A stretch of DNA of 54,820 nucleotides from positions 70,292 through 125,111 of the forward strand of contig CADAXW010000002.1 in the NCBI GenBank assembly GCA_902792005.1, given 5' to 3'. Position 1 is the stretch's first letter, and each line of letters opens with the position of its first letter. Under the pieces are notes generated by a model. It was not told the DNA's origin, did no database searches, and worked only from the letters and a program-made list of their open reading frames with translations. A program made the position numbers and the translations under genes. This document shows, one piece after another, positions 6,311-38,666 of this stretch. The DNA is from an uncultured Lachnospiraceae bacterium (GTDB lineage Bacteria > Bacillota > Clostridia > Lachnospirales > Lachnospiraceae).

Positions 6311-6386
6311 CGTGACAACGGGGACAGTCCCCATTGTCACGTTTTCCTGGGAAAACGTGACAAGCGGGACTGTCCCCGTTGTCACG
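6311..6386. repeat. Paired REP-like element (copies B1 and B2)
   Basis: Two 31-bp palindromes (6311-6341 and 6356-6386) are separated by the 14-bp self-complementary spacer TTTTCCTGGGAAAA. The whole block can fold on itself. The same architecture recurs at 20442-20517. It lies between a convergent-free gene end and the ptb promoter, so it may also stop upstream transcription. Confidence 0.85.
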
Positions 6387-6395
6387 CTTTCTTTC

Positions 6396-6424
6396 TTGCA
6401 TCCGTCAGGTAAAAATGCTACAAT
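6396..6424 (+). promoter_or_regulatory. Promoter of ptb-buk
   Basis: TTGCAT (6396-6401), 17-bp spacer, TACAAT (6419-6424). The start of transcription would leave a leader of roughly 55 nt. Confidence 0.75.
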
Positions 6425-6485
6425 TACACTATCTATGGGCATCCATCAATCGGGATGCCAAAGTAAAAGAAAGGACAAAGAAAAA

Positions 6486-7412
6486 ATGAGCAAGAGTTTT
6501 GACGATCTTTTGGCTATGGTAAAGCAGTGCCCGAAGAAGAAGGTATCTGTAGCAGTTGCACAGGACAATGAGGTGCTTCAGGCAGTAAAGGAAGCAAAGG
6601 AGCAGGGGATTGCAGACAGCATCCTTGTAGGTGATCTGGATAAGATCAAACCCATTGCTGACGAGCTTTCCATGAATCTGGATGAATATGAGATCATTGA
6701 TGTGAAGGATCCCATCGAGGCAGCGCGTACCGCTGTTCAGCAGGTACATGACGGTAAGGCTGATATGTATATGAAGGGCCTGATCGATACGAAGGATTTC
6801 CTTCGCAGTGTATTGGATAAGGAGGTAGGCCTCCGTACCGGACGTCCCCTTTCTCATGTATGTGTATTTGAAACAGAGGGTGTGGACCATCTGCTGTTCC
6901 TGACGGACGTTGCATTTGTACCGTATCCGACACTGGAGGACAAGGCAAATATCATCCGAAACACAGTTGAGATCTGCAATGCATGCGGAATCGAGAACCC
7001 GAAGGTTGCTCCTCTTGCAGCAGTTGAGGTTGTAAATCCGAAAATGCCGGTAACGGTTGAGGCAGATCAGCTGACCAAGATGAACGAGGCCGGTGAGATC
7101 ACAGGCTGTATCGTGGACGGACCTCTGTCCATGGATCTGGCCACCTGCCCGGAGGCTGCACAGCATAAGGGTGCATCCGGACGTAAGATCGTGGGTGACG
7201 CAGACGTTCTGCTCTTCCCGGATATCCATGCAGGAAATATCCTGTACAAGGGACTCGTACACTTCTCAAAGAGCAAGAACGGAAATCTGATCACAGGTAC
7301 CGCAGCACCGGTTATCCTGACATCCAGATCCGACTCTTTCGAGGTTAAGGTAAACAGCCTTGCACTTGGAGCGCTGGTAGCAGACTCACTGAAGAAGAAC
7401 GCAGCGAAGTAA
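6486..7412 (+). CDS. ptb: Phosphate butyryltransferase
   Basis: 308 residues, normal for the phosphate acetyl/butyryltransferase family. Conserved stretches include YMKGLIDTKDFLRSVLDK, the catalytic-region segment VDGPLSMDLA, and the C-terminal GNLITGTAAPVILTSRSDS. The enzyme converts butyryl-CoA and phosphate to butyryl phosphate; the kinase gene directly downstream completes butyrate formation with ATP yield. The start at 6486 is set by AAGGAC at 6471-6476; the frame extends upstream to 6312 only through the REP element. A branched-chain acyl substrate is possible but the butyrate role is usual in Clostridia. Confidence 0.93.
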   Translation: MSKSFDDLLAMVKQCPKKKVSVAVAQDNEVLQAVKEAKEQGIADSILVGDLDKIKPIADELSMNLDEYEIIDVKDPIEAARTAVQQVHDGKADMYMKGLIDTKDFLRSVLDKEVGLRTGRPLSHVCVFETEGVDHLLFLTDVAFVPYPTLEDKANIIRNTVEICNACGIENPKVAPLAAVEVVNPKMPVTVEADQLTKMNEAGEITGCIVDGPLSMDLATCPEAAQHKGASGRKIVGDADVLLFPDIHAGNILYKGLVHFSKSKNGNLITGTAAPVILTSRSDSFEVKVNSLALGALVADSLKKNAAK

Positions 7413-8586: not shown

Positions 8587-10479
8587 ATGGACGAGCAGAA
8601 CATTCCGCAGGGAAACGATCCATTTACCCAGCAGGCGGACGATCCGTTTGCACAGCGGCCGGATAATACTTATGGACAGCCGCAGGTGAACCCGTATGGA
8701 CAGCCGCAGGCGAACCCTTACGGACAGCCGCAGGCGAACCCGTATGGACAGCCGCAGGCGAACCCGTATGGACAGCCGCAGACGAACCCGTATGGACAGC
8801 CGCAGGCAAACCCGTATGGACAGCCGCAGGCGAACCCGTATGGACAGCCGCAGGCAGATCCATATGGACAGCAGGCAAACCCGTACGCAGAACAGCAGGC
8901 GGGCGGTTACCCTCAGCAGCCTGGTGCAAACCCTTACGCACCGGCAACATCCCTTAATCCATACGGCGCAGGAGCACCGGTTCCTCCGAAACCTCCGAAG
9001 AAGAAAATGTCTGGCAAGATGAAGGCCCTTATCTTTGGTGGTATCGGTCTGGTTGCTATCGGCGTGGGACTTTTCTTCCTGTTCACCATGGTGATCTTCC
9101 CGCCGAAGAAGACCCTGAAGGGTGCAGTGGAGAAGACCTTCGACGGTTCCGAGGGTATCATCAAGGATTCACCTCTGATCGATGAGATGGGCGGCGATGA
9201 TATCATGAAGAACCTGAGGAAGGGCGGAAGCATCGATGTCCAGATCAAGGGCAAGGATGGAGTCGCGAAGGATGTGACCATCGACCTTGGTGTGGCAAAG
9301 GATGACAGTGCAAAGCGCCTGTCCGGCAAGGCAGTGCTGTCCGGAAACGGAGAGTCTGTCGATGCAGAGCTTTTTGCAGATGAAAATCAGACCTATGTTA
9401 CAGTGAAGGATCTGATCAACGGATATATCTCGATCAATAACCAGAACGTGATATCTACTCTGGCAAATGCGCCGGTCCTGCAGGATCAGGATCTATCCTC
9501 TCTTCGGATGCTGAACGATTTCAGCCTGAATTATTTCGGCGACTTCGAGGGCGGAATGTTATCCAAATTCGTTCTGAATGAGGAGTTTTGGGATGCTGTA
9601 AGCGTAAGCAGTGACGGGAAAGACAAGATCAACATCGGAAGCGAGACGGTTACTGTCAATAAATACAAGGTGACTGTTCCGAAGTCAAAGATCGATGAGT
9701 GGGTTGATAAAGCCATCGATGCTGCTCTGAACTCCGCGAACAATTCTGCGATTACGAAATATCTGGAAAGAGCAGGTCTGGGTGACGTTTCTCAGATGAA
9801 GGATCAGATCAAGCCGATCCTGAAGAGCATGTTCCCGGATGATTTCCCCTTCTGGATCTATGTGGAAGACGGGCGGATGGTAGGTGCCAAGCTGAACGGA
9901 AAGCTTACCATTGCAGCATACAGCATCGACTATGATGTTGAGATCATTGCCTATGGGGATGATGATAAGTCTAAGTATGGAATTACAGGCTCCATCACTA
10001 TGATGGGCCAGAAGATCGGTCTTACTGCCACATGTACCACCACGAAGGAAGAAAATTCTGTGAAGACAAATGTGATCCTTTCCTTAGAGGCGGCAAATGT
10101 GAAGGCCATTGACGGTAATTACAATCAGACCTATGATACTTCAAGCAAGACCATCACAGGTTCCGGTTCACTCAGTGTTAGAAATGAAGAGGTGGCTCAG
10201 ATCTCCGTAAACGGAAAGGTGACCGAATCTACATCCGGAAAGTCCTTCTCCCTGGAACTGGACGATATAAAGCTCACCGCACAGGGAAAATCAATGTCCT
10301 TCAGCATGAAGGCGGATGTCAAAACACTGGAAGGCGGTGCGACGGTTGCATCCAAGGACGATTCCAAGAAGGTATGCAATATCGGCACATGCACAAAGGA
10401 AGAACTTAAGGCCATGAGCTCTGAGGAGCTTCTGGCGCAGCTCGGACAGAAGATACAAAAGATATTTGAACAGCACTGA
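8587..10479 (+). CDS. Membrane-anchored protein with N-terminal YGQPQANP repeats
   Basis: 630 residues. Residues about 29-100 are an octapeptide repeat (YGQPQANP, eight full copies and a shortened one), then a Pro-rich linker and the basic stretch PPKPPKKKMSGKMK. One membrane helix follows at about 146-170, and the remaining 460 residues lie outside the cell by the positive-inside rule. The outer part is rich in Ser, Lys and beta-strand pattern and resembles ligand-binding or lipoprotein-like domains, but I do not recognise it. TAGGAGGT precedes the ATG by 6 nt. It follows buk by only 24 nt, yet no functional link is evident. Confidence 0.75.
   Translation: MDEQNIPQGNDPFTQQADDPFAQRPDNTYGQPQVNPYGQPQANPYGQPQANPYGQPQANPYGQPQTNPYGQPQANPYGQPQANPYGQPQADPYGQQANPYAEQQAGGYPQQPGANPYAPATSLNPYGAGAPVPPKPPKKKMSGKMKALIFGGIGLVAIGVGLFFLFTMVIFPPKKTLKGAVEKTFDGSEGIIKDSPLIDEMGGDDIMKNLRKGGSIDVQIKGKDGVAKDVTIDLGVAKDDSAKRLSGKAVLSGNGESVDAELFADENQTYVTVKDLINGYISINNQNVISTLANAPVLQDQDLSSLRMLNDFSLNYFGDFEGGMLSKFVLNEEFWDAVSVSSDGKDKINIGSETVTVNKYKVTVPKSKIDEWVDKAIDAALNSANNSAITKYLERAGLGDVSQMKDQIKPILKSMFPDDFPFWIYVEDGRMVGAKLNGKLTIAAYSIDYDVEIIAYGDDDKSKYGITGSITMMGQKIGLTATCTTTKEENSVKTNVILSLEAANVKAIDGNYNQTYDTSSKTITGSGSLSVRNEEVAQISVNGKVTESTSGKSFSLELDDIKLTAQGKSMSFSMKADVKTLEGGATVASKDDSKKVCNIGTCTKEELKAMSSEELLAQLGQKIQKIFEQH
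8671..8883 (+). repeat. 24-bp in-frame tandem repeat
   Basis: Eight 24-bp units beginning TATGGACAGCCGCAGG run from 8671 to 8862, followed by a 21-bp variant. Copies differ by only a few bases (mostly the GCG/GTG/ACG/GCA codon and third positions). The low divergence suggests recent expansion, and copy number may vary among strains. Confidence 0.9.
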
Positions 10480-29597: not shown

Positions 29598-29612
29598 TAG
29601 AATGTTAAGGTA

Positions 29613-29637
29613 TGACGGGAGTGTCCCATTCGACACG
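29613..29637. repeat. Degenerate REP-like remnant
   Basis: ATGACGGGAGTGTCCCATTC followed by GACACG keeps the order of the REP-like repeat (GTGAC, GGGA.AGTCCC, GTCACG) with several changes. Confidence 0.4.
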
Positions 29638-29659
29638 TCTCGAAAAGGAGGTATTTATC

Positions 29660-31590
29660 ATGGCAAAAAAACCGTATTACATTACAACAGCCATCGCATA
29701 TGCATCAGGAAAGCCGCATATCGGCAACACCTATGAGATCGTACTGGCGGATGCCATCGCCAGATACAAGCGCTTTATCGGCTATGACGTGCGTTTCCAG
29801 ACAGGAACCGATGAGCATGGACAAAAGATCGAGACCAAGGCCTTTGAAAGTCTTTCCACACCGAAGGAATTCGTGGATGAGAAGGCAGGAGAGATAAGGC
29901 GGATCTGGGACCTGATGAACACATCATATGACAGATTCATCCGAACCACCGATGCGGATCACGAGCTTCAGGTTCAGAAGATCTTCAAGAAGCTTTATGA
30001 TCATCCTTCTGGACACCTGGCCAGTTAAAGGACGGAAAATGTCCCGACTGCGGTCGTGACGTTCATCCTGCAAAGGAAGAGGCTTATTTCTTCAAGATGA
30101 GCAAGTATGCTCCGCGGCTGATCGAGTATATCGAGAAGCATCCGGAGTTTATTCAGCCGGAGTCCCGGAAGAACGAGATGGTAAACACCTTCCTGAAGCC
30201 GGGTCTGCAGGACCTTTGCGTATCCAGAACCTCCTTTAAGTGGGGTATTCCGGTGGATTTCGATCCCAAGCACGTGGTTTATGTATGGATCGATGCACTG
30301 TCCAACTATATCACCGGACTTGGCTATGACGTAGACGGAAACAGCTCCGAGATGTTCAAGAAATACTGGCCGGCGGATCTTCACCTGATCGGCAAGGATA
30401 TCCTCCGGTTCCATACCATTTACTGGCCCATCATGCTGATGGCCCTTGATCTGCCCCTTCCGAAGCAGGTGTTCGGACATCCCTGGCTGATCCAGAGCGA
30501 CGGCAAGATGAGCAAGTCCCGCGGAAATGTACTTTATGCCGACGACATGGTAGATCTCTTCGGCGTAGATGCAGTCCGTTACTTTGTGCTGCATGAGATG
30601 CCCTACGAAAACGACGGTGTCGTTTCCTGGGAGCTGCTGATCGAGCGGATCAACTCCGATCTGGCCAACACACTGGGGAACCTGGTGAACCGTACCATCT
30701 CCATGGTCAACAAGTACTCCGGCGGCGTTGTAAACAATGCCGGTGTGGCAGAGGAAGTGGATGCGGAACTGAAGGACAGCATCCGTGCATACAGGATCCA
30801 TGTCAATGAGTGCATGGAGAAGCTGAAATGTGCCGACGCGCTCACCGAGATCTTCAACATTTTCAGAAGACTCAACAAATATATCGACGAGACCATGCCC
30901 TGGGTTCTGGGCAAGGACGAGACAAAGAAGGACCGTCTGGATACGGTGCTCTACAACCTGGTAGAAGGCATCACCATCGGCGCCAGCCTGCTGGCATCCT
31001 TCCTGCCGGAAACTGCAGACAAGATCGTAGCTCAGCTTTGCACCGAGAAGAGAAAGGTTACCGAGCTGGGAACCTTCGGACTATATCCTTCGGGCAACAG
31101 CGTGACGGCTTCTCCGGAGATCCTCTTCGCAAGGATCGATACCGAGAAGATGCTGGAGGAGATCGCAGTCCGCTTCCCGTCCAAGGAGCCTGAGGCACCA
31201 AAGCCGGAGAAACCGGCACAGCCCGAGAAGTCCGAGCCGGATCGCATCGCAGCAGTTGTTAAAGAACAGCTCACCATCGAGGAGTTTGATAAGATGCAGC
31301 TGCAGGTAGGTCAGATCCTTTCCTGTGAAGAGGTACCGAAGTCCAAGAAGCTTCTCTGCTCCCAGGTACAGGTAGAAGGACGTGTCCTGCAGATCGTATC
31401 CGGGATCAAGAACTACTATTCACCGGAGGATATGGTAGGAAGAAAGGTGGTTGTGATCACAAACCTGAAGCCGGCGAAGCTGGCAGGCATCGAGTCTCAG
31501 GGTATGCTGCTCTGTGCCGAGGATCCGGAAGGCAAGCTGTCACTGCTCACCACAGACCGCGACGTACCGGCTGGCTCAATGATCAGCTGA
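29660..31590 (+). pseudogene. metG: Methionyl-tRNA synthetase, disrupted by an inferred ~52-nt deletion
   Basis: The start at 29660 follows AAAGGAGG (29644-29651). The catalytic domain opens with KPHIGNTYE, and KMSKSRGNV, the anticodon domain and a C-terminal tRNA-binding domain (from about 31285) are all present. After KKLYD (GAT 29999-30001) the frame is wrong and stops at 30028. A second frame resumes at 30004 with SFWTPGQLKDGKCPDCGRD and stays open to 31590. Relative to the family, about 17 residues of the zinc-knuckle region are missing (around YKG...YEGWYC..CE), including the first CxxC. A 52-nt loss would explain both the frame and the gap. The gene is normally essential, so either another copy exists or the lesion is not real. 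Confidence 0.88.
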
Positions 31591-34973: not shown

Positions 34974-35822
34974 ATGGATTTGGAATTAAAAACAGTGTCC
35001 TTCGGTGGATATGATAAAAAGGCAGTAGAGACTTATATTTCCGAGATGCAGGAAGGCTATGAGAAGCAGATCGCTCAGTTGAAAGAGACAACCGTAAAGC
35101 TGGGGGAGACCGTGGACAGCCTTCGGAAGATGCGCGAAGTGAATATGAACGAGTCTAAGGCGAATGTAGATAACCTGAAGGATGCGAATACCAGTCTGAG
35201 AAGTGAGATCGAAGTGCTTCGTGAGAAGCTGGCTGATTATGAGGCCAACGAGCAGGAATACAAGGATAAGTATGAGTCTGTCAGCAAGGTCGCACTGGAT
35301 GCCCAGATGCGTGCAGACCGACTGGTAAGAGATACAGAGAATGAGTGCACCGCAAAGAGAAATGAGGTTGCTGCAGAACTGGAGAAGATGATGCAGGAGA
35401 CTCATGATCAGTGCGAAGAGCTTAAGAATACAACAACGGCAGAGTGCGACCGCCTGAGATCAGAGACGGAAGCATCCTGCAGCGAGCTGAAGGCAACAAC
35501 CGAGTCCGAGTGCGAGCGCCAGAGAGCATCCACCAGCTATGATTGTGCAAATCAGAAGCTGAACACAGAGACCTACTGTGAGAATCTGAAGTCCTCTACA
35601 GAGTCCGAGTGTGAGAAGATGAAGGCGGAAGCAGAAGCAGAGTGCGATGAGATGAAGCAGAAGACCAGAGAAGAGGTTTATACCACACGTTCTCAGGTGA
35701 AGCGCGAATGCGAGAGCATCAGCGAGTTTGTATCTCAGCTGCAGGAGTCTGTGGAGAATGTTGCCAGTGCTGTTAAGAAGACAAAGGAGCTGACAGACGG
35801 AGCCTTCGGTGATCTGAATTAG
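34974..35822 (+). CDS. DivIVA-like coiled-coil protein with a cysteine every eleventh residue
   Basis: 282 residues. The N-terminus (FGGYDKKAVETYISEMQEGYE) fits the membrane-binding head of DivIVA-like proteins. Most of the rest is a long coiled coil. From residue 125 to 246 it follows an 11-residue repeat, and cysteines occupy the same position at 125, 147, 158, 169, 180, 191, 202, 213, 224 and 246; only 136 (Leu) and 235 (Val) break the series. The repeats have the form ECxxLKxxTES. Hendecad repeats give an almost straight coiled coil, so the thiols would line one face. Cross-linking, metal binding or redox sensing are possible; nothing proves any. The ribosome site is AAAGGGG. A terminator separates it from the sensor gene. 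Confidence 0.85.
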   Translation: MDLELKTVSFGGYDKKAVETYISEMQEGYEKQIAQLKETTVKLGETVDSLRKMREVNMNESKANVDNLKDANTSLRSEIEVLREKLADYEANEQEYKDKYESVSKVALDAQMRADRLVRDTENECTAKRNEVAAELEKMMQETHDQCEELKNTTTAECDRLRSETEASCSELKATTESECERQRASTSYDCANQKLNTETYCENLKSSTESECEKMKAEAEAECDEMKQKTREEVYTTRSQVKRECESISEFVSQLQESVENVASAVKKTKELTDGAFGDLN

Positions 35823-35893: not shown

Positions 35894-35913
35894 GTCTAAA
35901 GGGGGTGGCCGGT

Positions 35914-37656
35914 TTGGATCGGATCAAAACATATCTGGGACGCGCGCTGGAAATGACAAACAGCTGTGTCGTAGTCATGAAATATACAAAGGATGAGCCG
36001 GTGACCCGGACGAAGCTGGAGTTTATTTCCGAAAATGTACAGCAGCTGGGAATGAACCTGGACAGCCTGAAGGGAGGCTTCCGGTTACCGAAGGATTATA
36101 TCCATCCGGAGGACCGGAATGGGTTCATTGATGCGGTAAGCATAGCAGCGGAGACACAGACGGATTTTACCTATCGGGTCCGTCTGGTGGGAGATGACGG
36201 GGTCATTCGGAATGTGGATGTATCCTCGCAGTATATGGATTTTGATGCGGATTATTATCTGATCGAGTATGTATTCCATGAGATCATCCTCCAGAAGGAG
36301 GATCTGACCGAGGGGCAGAAGAAGAAAAAGGATTCTGCAGGTGCGGTGATCACCAAGGATGTGTTTGGAAAGGATGATCTCAGTGAGATCTTCGGAATCT
36401 TTGCAAATTCATACGGCCTGTATTCTACAGTTGTGGATCAGGACGGACATTCCCTGCTGCCGCCGGTGGGACCGGAGGCGTATCTGGGACATTATTATGA
36501 TATGTTTGAGCGCCCTGAGAATCAGGAGCTTTTTGATACCATCAAGCGGTCTGCACTGATGCAGGATCAGGCAGTGTATATGGAATTGGAGAACGGGAAT
36601 CCGGACAGCCGGGTATCGGCAGTGCCCCTCATGGTAAACGGAGTGCATCTGGCAACCTGGATGCTCTGCGCTCATGATAAGTCCCAGTCAGCTGCCCTTA
36701 GGATCGCCTCCAGAGTGCAGTGTCGTCTGGCAGAGCTGGTAAGCGGTTATATTCAGAGGACCGTGATCAGCAGCAGACGAAATCAGCGGGAAAAAGAACT
36801 GGAGAAGCTTCTTGAATTTGAACAGCAGCAGAAGGCAGTGATCTCAAAGCTGAATCCGATGATCCATAGTGATGATACAAACTCGATTCATATGATCCTT
36901 CAGGAGGCGAAAAATGTACTGGATGTCGATTACGCCTTTCTGATGATGCGTAACGGCTCTACCGGAAGCTTTGGAACGATAGAGGACTATGTAAGCTTTG
37001 ATGGGACGAGACCGAAGGAGATCAATTTCGAGGCCTTTGCCGAGGATGAGAGGAAGAATATCGCAGAGGAAGGCTATGTGGTGGATCAAAAGTCCATGAC
37101 AAACCGCATCCGCGTAAGTGTGTTCCAGGGCTTTGCCCGGGCGGCGATCATCTACCCAATCCGTATAAATGAGAAGTCCATAGGAAAGATCGTGTTCCTT
37201 GAGACCAGAAGAGAGAGGATATGGACAAGATCGGAGATCGTCTTTGCAGAGATGATCGGACAGATCATGACAGAGCATATTTCCTACAAGAAGGGAATGA
37301 GGAACGGAACCGGTTCCGGCCGGGACCTGCTGGAGCTGTTCCACCAGCTGTCCATTCATATGTTTATTAAGGCAAAGGACAGCGGAAGAGTTCTCTTCTC
37401 GAATACTGCGCTGAATCGTCAGCTGGGCTTTGATTTTGTGGGACAGGATTCCCGCCGGATCGTTCCGGAGGGCAAGGAAGAGTTTGAAAGCTATCCCGGA
37501 ACCCTGCATGAAAAACCTGTGGAGAAGAAGGGTATCCGGAAATGGCGCAGATATATCAATGAGTTCAGCGGGATCTATGATGTGACGGAGATCCCGGTTG
37601 AATGGATCGACGGATCAGAGGCTGTGGCAGTCTTGCTCCGTATTGCACAGGATTAG
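35914..37656 (+). CDS. Multi-domain PAS/GAF sensor protein without an output domain
   Basis: 580 residues. Residues about 1-125 have a PAS pattern (FISENVQQLGM ... YIHPEDRNGF ... TYRVRLVGDDGVIRNVDV). Residues about 150-290 resemble a PocR-like ligand-binding domain (IFGIFANSYGLYSTVVDQDG). A coiled coil (about 292-320) leads into a GAF-like region (about 325-475), and the last 100 residues look PAS-like again. No kinase, cyclase, phosphodiesterase or DNA-binding domain follows. The start is taken as TTG 35914, spaced from AAAGGGGG; GTG 35905 abuts it. The gene is 20 nt from mreB and may feed a signal to cell-shape control. Domain calls are by pattern and need profile searches. Confidence 0.65.
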   Translation: MDRIKTYLGRALEMTNSCVVVMKYTKDEPVTRTKLEFISENVQQLGMNLDSLKGGFRLPKDYIHPEDRNGFIDAVSIAAETQTDFTYRVRLVGDDGVIRNVDVSSQYMDFDADYYLIEYVFHEIILQKEDLTEGQKKKKDSAGAVITKDVFGKDDLSEIFGIFANSYGLYSTVVDQDGHSLLPPVGPEAYLGHYYDMFERPENQELFDTIKRSALMQDQAVYMELENGNPDSRVSAVPLMVNGVHLATWMLCAHDKSQSAALRIASRVQCRLAELVSGYIQRTVISSRRNQREKELEKLLEFEQQQKAVISKLNPMIHSDDTNSIHMILQEAKNVLDVDYAFLMMRNGSTGSFGTIEDYVSFDGTRPKEINFEAFAEDERKNIAEEGYVVDQKSMTNRIRVSVFQGFARAAIIYPIRINEKSIGKIVFLETRRERIWTRSEIVFAEMIGQIMTEHISYKKGMRNGTGSGRDLLELFHQLSIHMFIKAKDSGRVLFSNTALNRQLGFDFVGQDSRRIVPEGKEEFESYPGTLHEKPVEKKGIRKWRRYINEFSGIYDVTEIPVEWIDGSEAVAVLLRIAQD

Positions 37657-37676
37657 AGGATTTAGGAGGATATACA

Positions 37677-38666
37677 ATGGCAAGCGCAGACATCGGTATC
37701 GATCTTGGTACCGCGAGTATTCTGGTATATGTGAAAGGTAAGGGCGTGGTTCTGAGGGAGCCTTCTATCGTAGCGTACGATAAGGACCTGGAGAAGATCG
37801 TTGAGATCGGTGAGGAAGCACGGCTCATGCTGGGACGTACACCCGGAAATATCATCGCGATCCGTCCCCTTCGTCATGGCGTGGTTTCGGATTATACAAC
37901 CACGGAGAAGATGTTGAAATACTTCATCCGGAAGGCAGTGGGACGTAATTTCTTCGGACGCCGTCCCCGGATCTGTGTTTGTGTTCCCTCCGGAGTTACT
38001 GAGGTAGAGAAAAGAGCCGTGGAAGAGGCAACCTACAATGCTGGAGCCAGAGATGTTACCATCATTGAGGAACCGATAGCAGCGGCCATCGGAGCAGGCA
38101 TCGACATTGTCCGCCCCATGGGTAATATGGTGGTGGATATCGGCGGAGGAACCACGGATATCGCCGTGATCTCCATGCGCGGGGCAGTGGTCAGCCAGTC
38201 CATCAAGGTTGCAGGCGAGGATTTTGATGAGGCCATCATGCGTTATGTGAGAAAGACGCATAAGCTTCTGATCGGTGAGCGTACCGCAGAGGAAGTGAAG
38301 ATAAATGTGGGGACCTGCTATAAGCGGCCGGAGAACATTTCCATGGATATCAGAGGACGGGATGTGGTAAGCGGTCTTCCTAAGACCGTTATGATCACCT
38401 CGGATGAGACGGAGGAAGCGCTGCGTGAGCCTACAAGCCAGATCGTTGAGGCGGTTCATGCCGTACTGGAGAAGACTCCGCCGGAGTTGGCAGCGGATAT
38501 CGCGGATCGAGGCATCGTCCTGACAGGAGGGGGCGCTCTCCTTCACGGACTGGAGCAGCTGATCGAAGAGAAGACGGGGATCACCACCATGACAGCGGAG
38601 GATCCGCTTTCTGCAGTCGCCATCGGCACCGGAAAATATGTAGAGTTTATTGACGATGAGAAATAA
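37677..38666 (+). CDS. mreB: MreB-family actin-like cell-shape protein
   Basis: 329 residues with the actin-fold motifs IGIDLGTASILVYV (phosphate 1), DIGGGTTDIAVIS (phosphate 2) and GIVLTGGGALLHGLE (adenosine). It forms membrane-associated filaments that guide elongation of the wall. The start at 37677 follows TTAGGAGGA. It could be the Mbl or MreBH paralogue; MreC and MreD are not adjacent here, while the sensor gene upstream and recD2 downstream are very close (20 nt each). Confidence 0.93.
   Translation: MASADIGIDLGTASILVYVKGKGVVLREPSIVAYDKDLEKIVEIGEEARLMLGRTPGNIIAIRPLRHGVVSDYTTTEKMLKYFIRKAVGRNFFGRRPRICVCVPSGVTEVEKRAVEEATYNAGARDVTIIEEPIAAAIGAGIDIVRPMGNMVVDIGGGTTDIAVISMRGAVVSQSIKVAGEDFDEAIMRYVRKTHKLLIGERTAEEVKINVGTCYKRPENISMDIRGRDVVSGLPKTVMITSDETEEALREPTSQIVEAVHAVLEKTPPELAADIADRGIVLTGGGALLHGLEQLIEEKTGITTMTAEDPLSAVAIGTGKYVEFIDDEK

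Follow-up and report, generated by a model that had tools for sequence, protein, structure and literature searches.

A cysteine ladder in a DivIVA-like protein

The window, i.e., the whole stretch of 54,820 nucleotides analysed here, encodes a 282-residue protein in which cysteine recurs with a period of 11 residues over much of its length. Judging by the substitution pattern, this ladder forms part of the seam in a coiled coil of hendecads; it is conserved among relatives, and its gene keeps its place in front of a PAS/GAF gene and mreB. Tentatively, and with somewhat less than even confidence, the protein may be regarded as a scaffold rod whose seam thiols would staple it reversibly, through redox change or a soft metal. 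The features concerned are the following.

34974..35822, + strand: ladder protein gene, 282 aa (open frame without internal stops, translation, homologues)
34974..35141, + strand: N-terminal DivIVA-like part, residues 1-56, containing SFGGYDKKAVETYI (best PF05103 stretch at residues 9-56; F10-G11-G12-Y13-D14)
35142..35345, + strand: coil before the ladder, residues 57-124, with the YES[IV]S anchor (Y100-E101-S102-S104)
35346..35711, + strand: cysteine ladder, residues 125-246, 12 hendecad rungs, ten of them Cys (translation, rung statistics of 82 proteins)
35712..35819, + strand: C-terminal segment, residues 247-282 (alignments A1 and A3)
35905..37656, + strand: PAS/GAF protein, 583 aa, conserved partner (PF08447 PAS_3 above cut-off, PF01590 GAF just below cut-off)
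37674..38666, + strand: MreB/Mbl (PF06723, 468 bits)

All ten cysteines of the protein (residues 125, 147, 158, 169, 180, 191, 202, 213, 224, and 246) share one phase modulo 11, and the two rungs without cysteine hold Leu (136) and Val (235). The count of ten cysteines in twelve 11-residue rungs given in an earlier note on this DNA is therefore exact, with the cysteine codons (35346-35711) no more than 3 bases from the coordinates noted. When residues 115-257 were shuffled 20,000 times, the ten cysteines never fell into a single phase of 11, which rules out chance as the source of the ladder; the analytic chance of such an arrangement is (1/11)^9 = 4e-10. Self-matching of the same residues peaks at shifts of 11 (0.26) and 22 (0.29), with values of 0.02-0.14 at the remaining shifts from 3 to 29. 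The ladder does not constitute a recent DNA tandem array, since Tandem Repeats Finder (score 40) reports none there; together with the exclusively synonymous changes in the cysteine codons of six relatives (see below), this means that a recent tandem duplication of DNA cannot alone account for the ladder. Elsewhere in the window, a 24-base unit is present in 8.4 tandem copies (8671-8872).

The choice of period was controlled on 1143 distinct predicted proteins, a set enriched for ladders through the manner of locus retrieval, by requiring at least 5 of 8 cysteines in phase at periods 4-30. The proteins passing numbered 90 at 11, 82 at 22 (a multiple of 11), seven at 23, three at 13, and two at 26; at every other period in this range, none of the 1143 passed.

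Conservation and growth of the ladder

A protein search covered 61 genomes, namely 37 of the genus (including that of the window) and 24 from other families of the order. The gene is present in 36 of the 37 genus genomes (none was found in G014, which is 80% complete), and marginal matches (E 8e-4) were obtained in two of the 24 others. Every one of the 36 genus proteins contains 7-12 in-phase cysteines, and every one of the best 80 of 127 relatives confirmed by a search of named genome records contains 8-13, so that the conservation which the earlier note proposed to check is borne out. The record names of these 80 are Lachnospiraceae, Eubacterium, Clostridium, Eubacteriales, Clostridiales, or Clostridia (Eubacterium ruminantium ATCC 17233 included). 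Many of their loci come from the same organisms as the genus genomes, and once identical proteins are dropped there are 83 ladder proteins; rung counts cover 82 of them, as L112 escaped the anchor pattern.

Cysteine occupies 811 of the 973 rungs in these 82 distinct proteins. The remaining 162 are filled by Thr (53), Ala (49), Val (36), Leu (13), Met (7), Ser (3), and Ile (1), and never by a charged residue. The distance from anchor to anchor equals 7 modulo 11 in all 82 proteins and takes five values between 128 and 172 residues, which indicates that hendecads are gained and lost as whole units with the phase preserved. An off-phase cysteine lies 28 residues past the C-terminal anchor in 34 of the 82 clade proteins and is absent from the window protein.

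The cysteine codons of six close relatives of equal length are identical in 91 of 150 pairwise comparisons and synonymous in the other 59, with no amino-acid change, whereas the residues of the same units changed in 43 of 120 comparisons at position d, 15 of 120 at h, and 62 of 120 at f (positions of the hendecad are described below). This pattern indicates that purifying selection acts on the cysteine itself.

An alternative nearly as likely as the staple is that the ladder serves packing only. In a strict anaerobe, cysteine would be a safe small core residue (of Ala-Val size), and a Cys/Thr seam would have been spread by hendecad duplication, leaving thiols without any chemistry. The exceptions at the rungs are indeed packing residues (Thr, Ala, Val, Leu, and Met), several ladder coils share no partner gene, a recent duplication of a unit is visible in L030 and L159, and in one related protein (L121, see below) serine, another small residue, occupies six successive rungs. 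However, cysteine is kept better than the seam Leu or Thr (0/150 versus 43/120 and 15/120), and serine is nearly excluded within the clade (3 of 162 exceptions); cysteine is therefore no mere stand-in for serine there. The better retention of cysteine than of Leu or Thr agrees best with the staple, and the kind of exceptions and the serine version agree with packing. The share of cysteine rungs, the rarity of serine, and the growth in whole units are consistent with the staple as well, while the non-thiol residues at 162 of the 973 rungs weigh against it.

The hendecad coiled coil and its seam

In 891 units, lettered a to k with Cys at a, charged residues are absent from a and h (0% each) and account for 12% at d, 49-65% at b, c, e, g, i, and k, 36% at f, and 30% at j. 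Position h is 82% Thr, and d is 57% Leu and 16% Met; position e is 61% charged (K/R 60%), and E/D make up 54% at k. In the text of PMC6131620, the core positions of a hendecad are given as a, d, e, and h. From this definition and the charge pattern it follows that Cys and Thr take the two central seam positions. As expected for a hendecad coil, the periodicity is kept through insertions (82/82 anchor distances) and a, d, and h are mostly uncharged (fractions of 0.00, 0.12, and 0.00); the hydrophobic residue expected at e was not found, this position being mostly K/R.

The hendecad repeat with its thiols in line, as the earlier note described it, is thus upheld by the 11-residue periodicity and the rung statistics. 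Its placement of the thiols along one face was right as to their alignment. However, since rungs without cysteine hold nothing but Thr, Ala, Val, Leu, Met, Ser, or Ile, the thiols appear to sit in the seam and not on an exposed face. The lack of any charged rung and of any amino-acid change at the cysteine codons argues for thiols that lie in the coil seam and are under selection. This seam placement, together with the Thr-rich position h, favors the staple.

Pairs between k and e' (i to i+5), taken by reasoning as the hendecad equivalent of the heptad g-e' pairs, were counted in the 83 proteins. Among 896 pairs, 297 are of opposite charge, 37 are of like charge, and 562 hold a neutral residue. 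Ten proteins of another ladder family give 37 opposite and 5 like pairs in sum, with the charge signs swapped in some of them (opposite to like 7:0 in L159 and 3:0 in L199). The charges are read as favouring parallel, in-register strands, although a trimer is also possible, and such a register would suit the staple. Against it stand the many neutral pairs (562/896) and the misfits: in L157 the single opposite pair is outnumbered by two like ones, L158a has two of each kind, and L163 has no charged pairs at all. A rigid-helix model with a radius of 4.8 Å places facing Cb atoms 3.8 to 7.4 Å apart, depending on helix rotation, a range that does not decide for or against disulfides; that none closed at the nominal a setting is a point against the staple.

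A helix with an 11-residue repeat might instead lie on a membrane, as an amphipathic helix in the style of synuclein or the apolipoproteins with Cys and Thr toward lipid. This is considered very improbable. The top-scoring Pfam match is indeed Apolipoprotein (28.3 bits, far under its cut-off of 90), accompanied by weak apolipoprotein matches in the PDB; on the other hand, the ladder coil (residues 115-257) has a net charge of -14, its non-polar face is narrow, and the charge pairing suits a coiled coil. The same net charge makes the carriage of lipid, which the earlier note had raised, unlikely.

Relation to DivIVA and other known coils

The GYD motif region is an N-terminal feature of DivIVA, and a region of this type is present in the ladder protein, where F10-G11-G12-Y13-D14 shows no variation in 49 aligned sequences; the same holds for Y100-E101-S102-S104. 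The likeness to DivIVA proposed in the earlier note thus stands for the N-terminal part. It is weaker for the protein as a whole, which scores 24.4 bits with PF05103, below the curated cut-off of 28. A six-frame search with PF05103 yields two pieces at the ladder gene (17.6 and 16.5 bits), and the genome has DivIVA matches above the cut-off at two other places, G000:C6:68081 (130 bits) and C6:108872 (53.6 bits), so the ladder gene is not the best DivIVA match of its genome. In the text of PMC8872289, DivIVA is described as binding curved membranes and forming tetramers, and in that of PMC7340271 the N-terminal domain of Wag31 is a parallel coiled-coil dimer. Like DivIVA, Wag31, and GpsB, the ladder protein combines an N-terminal part of GYD type with a long coiled coil behind it; it differs in its sub-cut-off score, and the word "cysteine" is absent from the main text of both papers.

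Rotary ATPase stalks (b2 and EG) contain hendecads and form right-handed two-stranded rods, according to the text of PMC6131620. The 11-residue repeat is common to these stalks and the ladder, whereas the latter has a mostly charged position e (61% of units) and a seam of Cys and Thr. The ladder profile matches PDB ID: 6h9l, an uncharacterized protein with TKEDIEALRKA hendecads, at E 0.012; Thr aligns with Thr, but 6h9l carries Ile where the ladder has Cys. With 16.1 bits against a curated cut-off of 33.5, the protein scores too low for the CCDC90-like family PF07798. Among the literature matches listed (titles and abstract starts, mostly outside subscription journals), none concerned bacterial hendecads with cysteine at a regular period.

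In Csp copper storage proteins and in designed Cys coiled coils, cysteines line the interior of a helix bundle; those of Csp are closely spaced in a four-helix bundle. The window protein differs from Csp, as its successive cysteines are 11 or 22 residues apart, with at most one seam cysteine per 11 residues. By analogy with the designed coils, two or three coils could join their thiols at each rung and bind Cu(I), Zn(II), Cd(II), or As(III), which would make the ladder a metal store or sensor. Thiols that face each other at a fixed spacing, as the rung statistics suggest, and a coil from another genome with 19 cysteines at period 11 (L122) would suit such a role. Nevertheless, it seems improbable: rungs about 16 Å apart provide two thiols per site in a dimer, no metal transporter is found among the genes read beside the ladder gene in the window, and the sole ABC-3 transporter nearby belongs to L121, whose protein has few cysteines. 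That the rungs are too widely spaced for a four-thiol metal site in one dimer also counts against the soft-metal form of the staple.

The PAS/GAF gene and mreB

The ladder gene of the window is surrounded by glmS, a lipoprotein-like gene, the PAS/GAF gene, mreB, recD2 (directly after mreB), and comF (with a zinc-ribbon domain). Its neighborhood was counted in 85 loci (L037-L121), some of which represent the same organism twice. All 85 loci have a PAS/GAF match downstream in the same orientation, and mreB follows it in 79, the other six ending within about 2.6 kb of the ladder gene start; recD2 is present in 71. The sensor gene and mreB that the earlier note had remarked nearby are thus regular companions of the ladder gene. 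MreB is matched strongly at two places in the genome (468 and 381 bits). In L110 (9816-11458) and L121 (10863-12534), two flagellar genes of FlgE/F/G type (rod or hook) directly follow mreB (assigned by Pfam for both genes in L110 and by likeness in L121), and L121 contains a flagellin gene upstream. Because the gene order is kept, the scaffold, the PAS/GAF protein, and MreB are regarded as a stable unit, whether flagellar genes are present or not.

Such constant partners speak for the staple. The PAS/GAF protein, however, lacks any well-conserved cysteine (the best column holds it in 39 of 85), which weighs against the staple and rules out a thiol relay into this partner. Apart from these genes, metG in the window apparently falls into one frame at 29612-30028 and another at 30097-31590, through a real break or a sequence error.

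Cysteine-poor orthologues

In a family sample of 299 genomes (298 genera), a profile of the clade matched 17 (E 1e-5). Six of them encode the ladder protein (G000, G023, G100, G130, G189, and G239), two encode cysteine-poor relatives (G247 with L121 and G166 with L124), and nine match other coil-type proteins, of which all but G088 and a place in G307 were read. Both L121 and L124 have a PAS-domain gene (832 and 797 aa, respectively) and mreB as neighbors. The L121 protein (6345-7268) has three in-phase cysteines, and its rungs from the first to the last cysteine read C-S-S-S-S-S-S-R-Y-C-K-V-C; the three in-phase cysteines of L124 are close to the C-terminus. A serine version of the ladder therefore exists in a related lineage. 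Upstream of the cysteine-poor gene, L121 encodes an ABC transporter pair (L121:3938-5427), the membrane part of which belongs to the ABC-3 family, presumably of the zinc/manganese type.

The earlier note had held that homologues without the periodic cysteines would speak against its reading. Such homologues were encountered in part, in that L121 and L124 retain three in-phase cysteines each. Both count against the staple: the six successive serines of L121 are incapable of the chemistry it demands, and L124 retains no more than its three cysteines in phase. Gain and loss of the ladder are indistinguishable, because the tree of N-terminal parts, with its long branches, leaves the root and the placement of L121 and L124 unsettled.

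Ladders in other coils of the family

A ladder profile, A2 (66 columns, 16 proteins), matched 14 of the 299 family genomes at E 1e-6. It matched two of 299 genomes in a sample of the phylum, both from the family, and three of 196 in a sample of the order, one of which (G734) is from another family and has no ladder frame of coil type; a ladder outside the family is thus rejected for the samples searched. The only clear match in the genome of the window is the ladder gene itself (next match E 0.1). A phage or plasmid trait is likewise rejected, as tblastn of the ladder protein against phage and plasmid collections (E 1e-3) gave no match in either. A search of six genomes with a poorly chosen 63-residue fragment returned nothing.

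A second ladder family has the consensus LxRxELLExLL...AGxIAEA...GVFxAAQxAAQQYL and up to 19 cysteines at period 11 (L122). This longest ladder seen belongs to a 533-residue coil (L122, at L162:7802-9403 on the - strand), part of which is withheld in the record. Members in L157, L158, L160, and L164 adjoin genes of signal-peptidase type (Peptidase_S26 by Pfam in all three tested, L158, L160, and L164). The ladder genes of these four loci also lie beside very large surface-type proteins, protein starts in L157 and L160 show a C..EEH.H motif, and four of the seven proteins with cysteine at period 23 come from loci of this kind. A third setting is a second DivIVA-like protein at a separate locus (L163), the best match of which among five proteins compared is the cysteine-free L129.

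The N-terminal part was surveyed as well: 39 of 299 genomes match, with both laddered and cysteine-free members. From these genomes, 30 loci were taken, of which 26 could be read and four were without the motif; at least three ladder cysteines were found in eight of the 26, two in three, and none or one in 15. Within this one bacterial family, ladders apparently originated at least twice, though the N-terminal tree does not prove so. Their recurrence in other coils of the same family is in keeping with the staple.

A possible mechanism and its meaning

According to the proposed mechanism, the product of the ladder gene would be a DivIVA-like scaffold, probably seated at the membrane, with a hendecad coiled coil as its long rod; contacts with the membrane and MreB are presumed. 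The rod is predicted to be parallel, in-register, and two-stranded, with Cys at seam position a, Leu or Met at d, and Thr at h, so that thiols might face each other about every 16 Å. Along with its PAS/GAF and MreB neighbors, the scaffold would probably position or regulate the cell-shape machinery. In the reducing cytoplasm of an anaerobe, the Cys/Thr seam might stay dynamic, whereas an oxidant (through interchain disulfides) or a soft metal ion could lock and stiffen it as a reversible staple. In its widest form, the proposal is of a natural thiol zipper beside MreB, in which rod stiffness would be switched by reversible oxidation or soft metal at the kept seam cysteines, a device repeatedly evolved in the coils of one anaerobic family; this wider form is rather unlikely.

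Coiled-coil seams usually consist of Ala or aliphatic residues. A seam of Cys and Thr that is long, conserved, and encoded with MreB would, if true, mean that cytoskeletal rods can be constructed or adjusted by a novel means. The recurrence of ladders in one oxygen-sensitive family, together with the serine version, raises the question of whether proteins in an anoxic cytoplasm can employ thiols for structure or switching in ways that are avoided by aerobes. A selected ladder in a rod-like scaffold encoded beside MreB is suggestive of a staple or sensor based on thiols in the bacterial cytoskeleton of some gut and rumen anaerobes.
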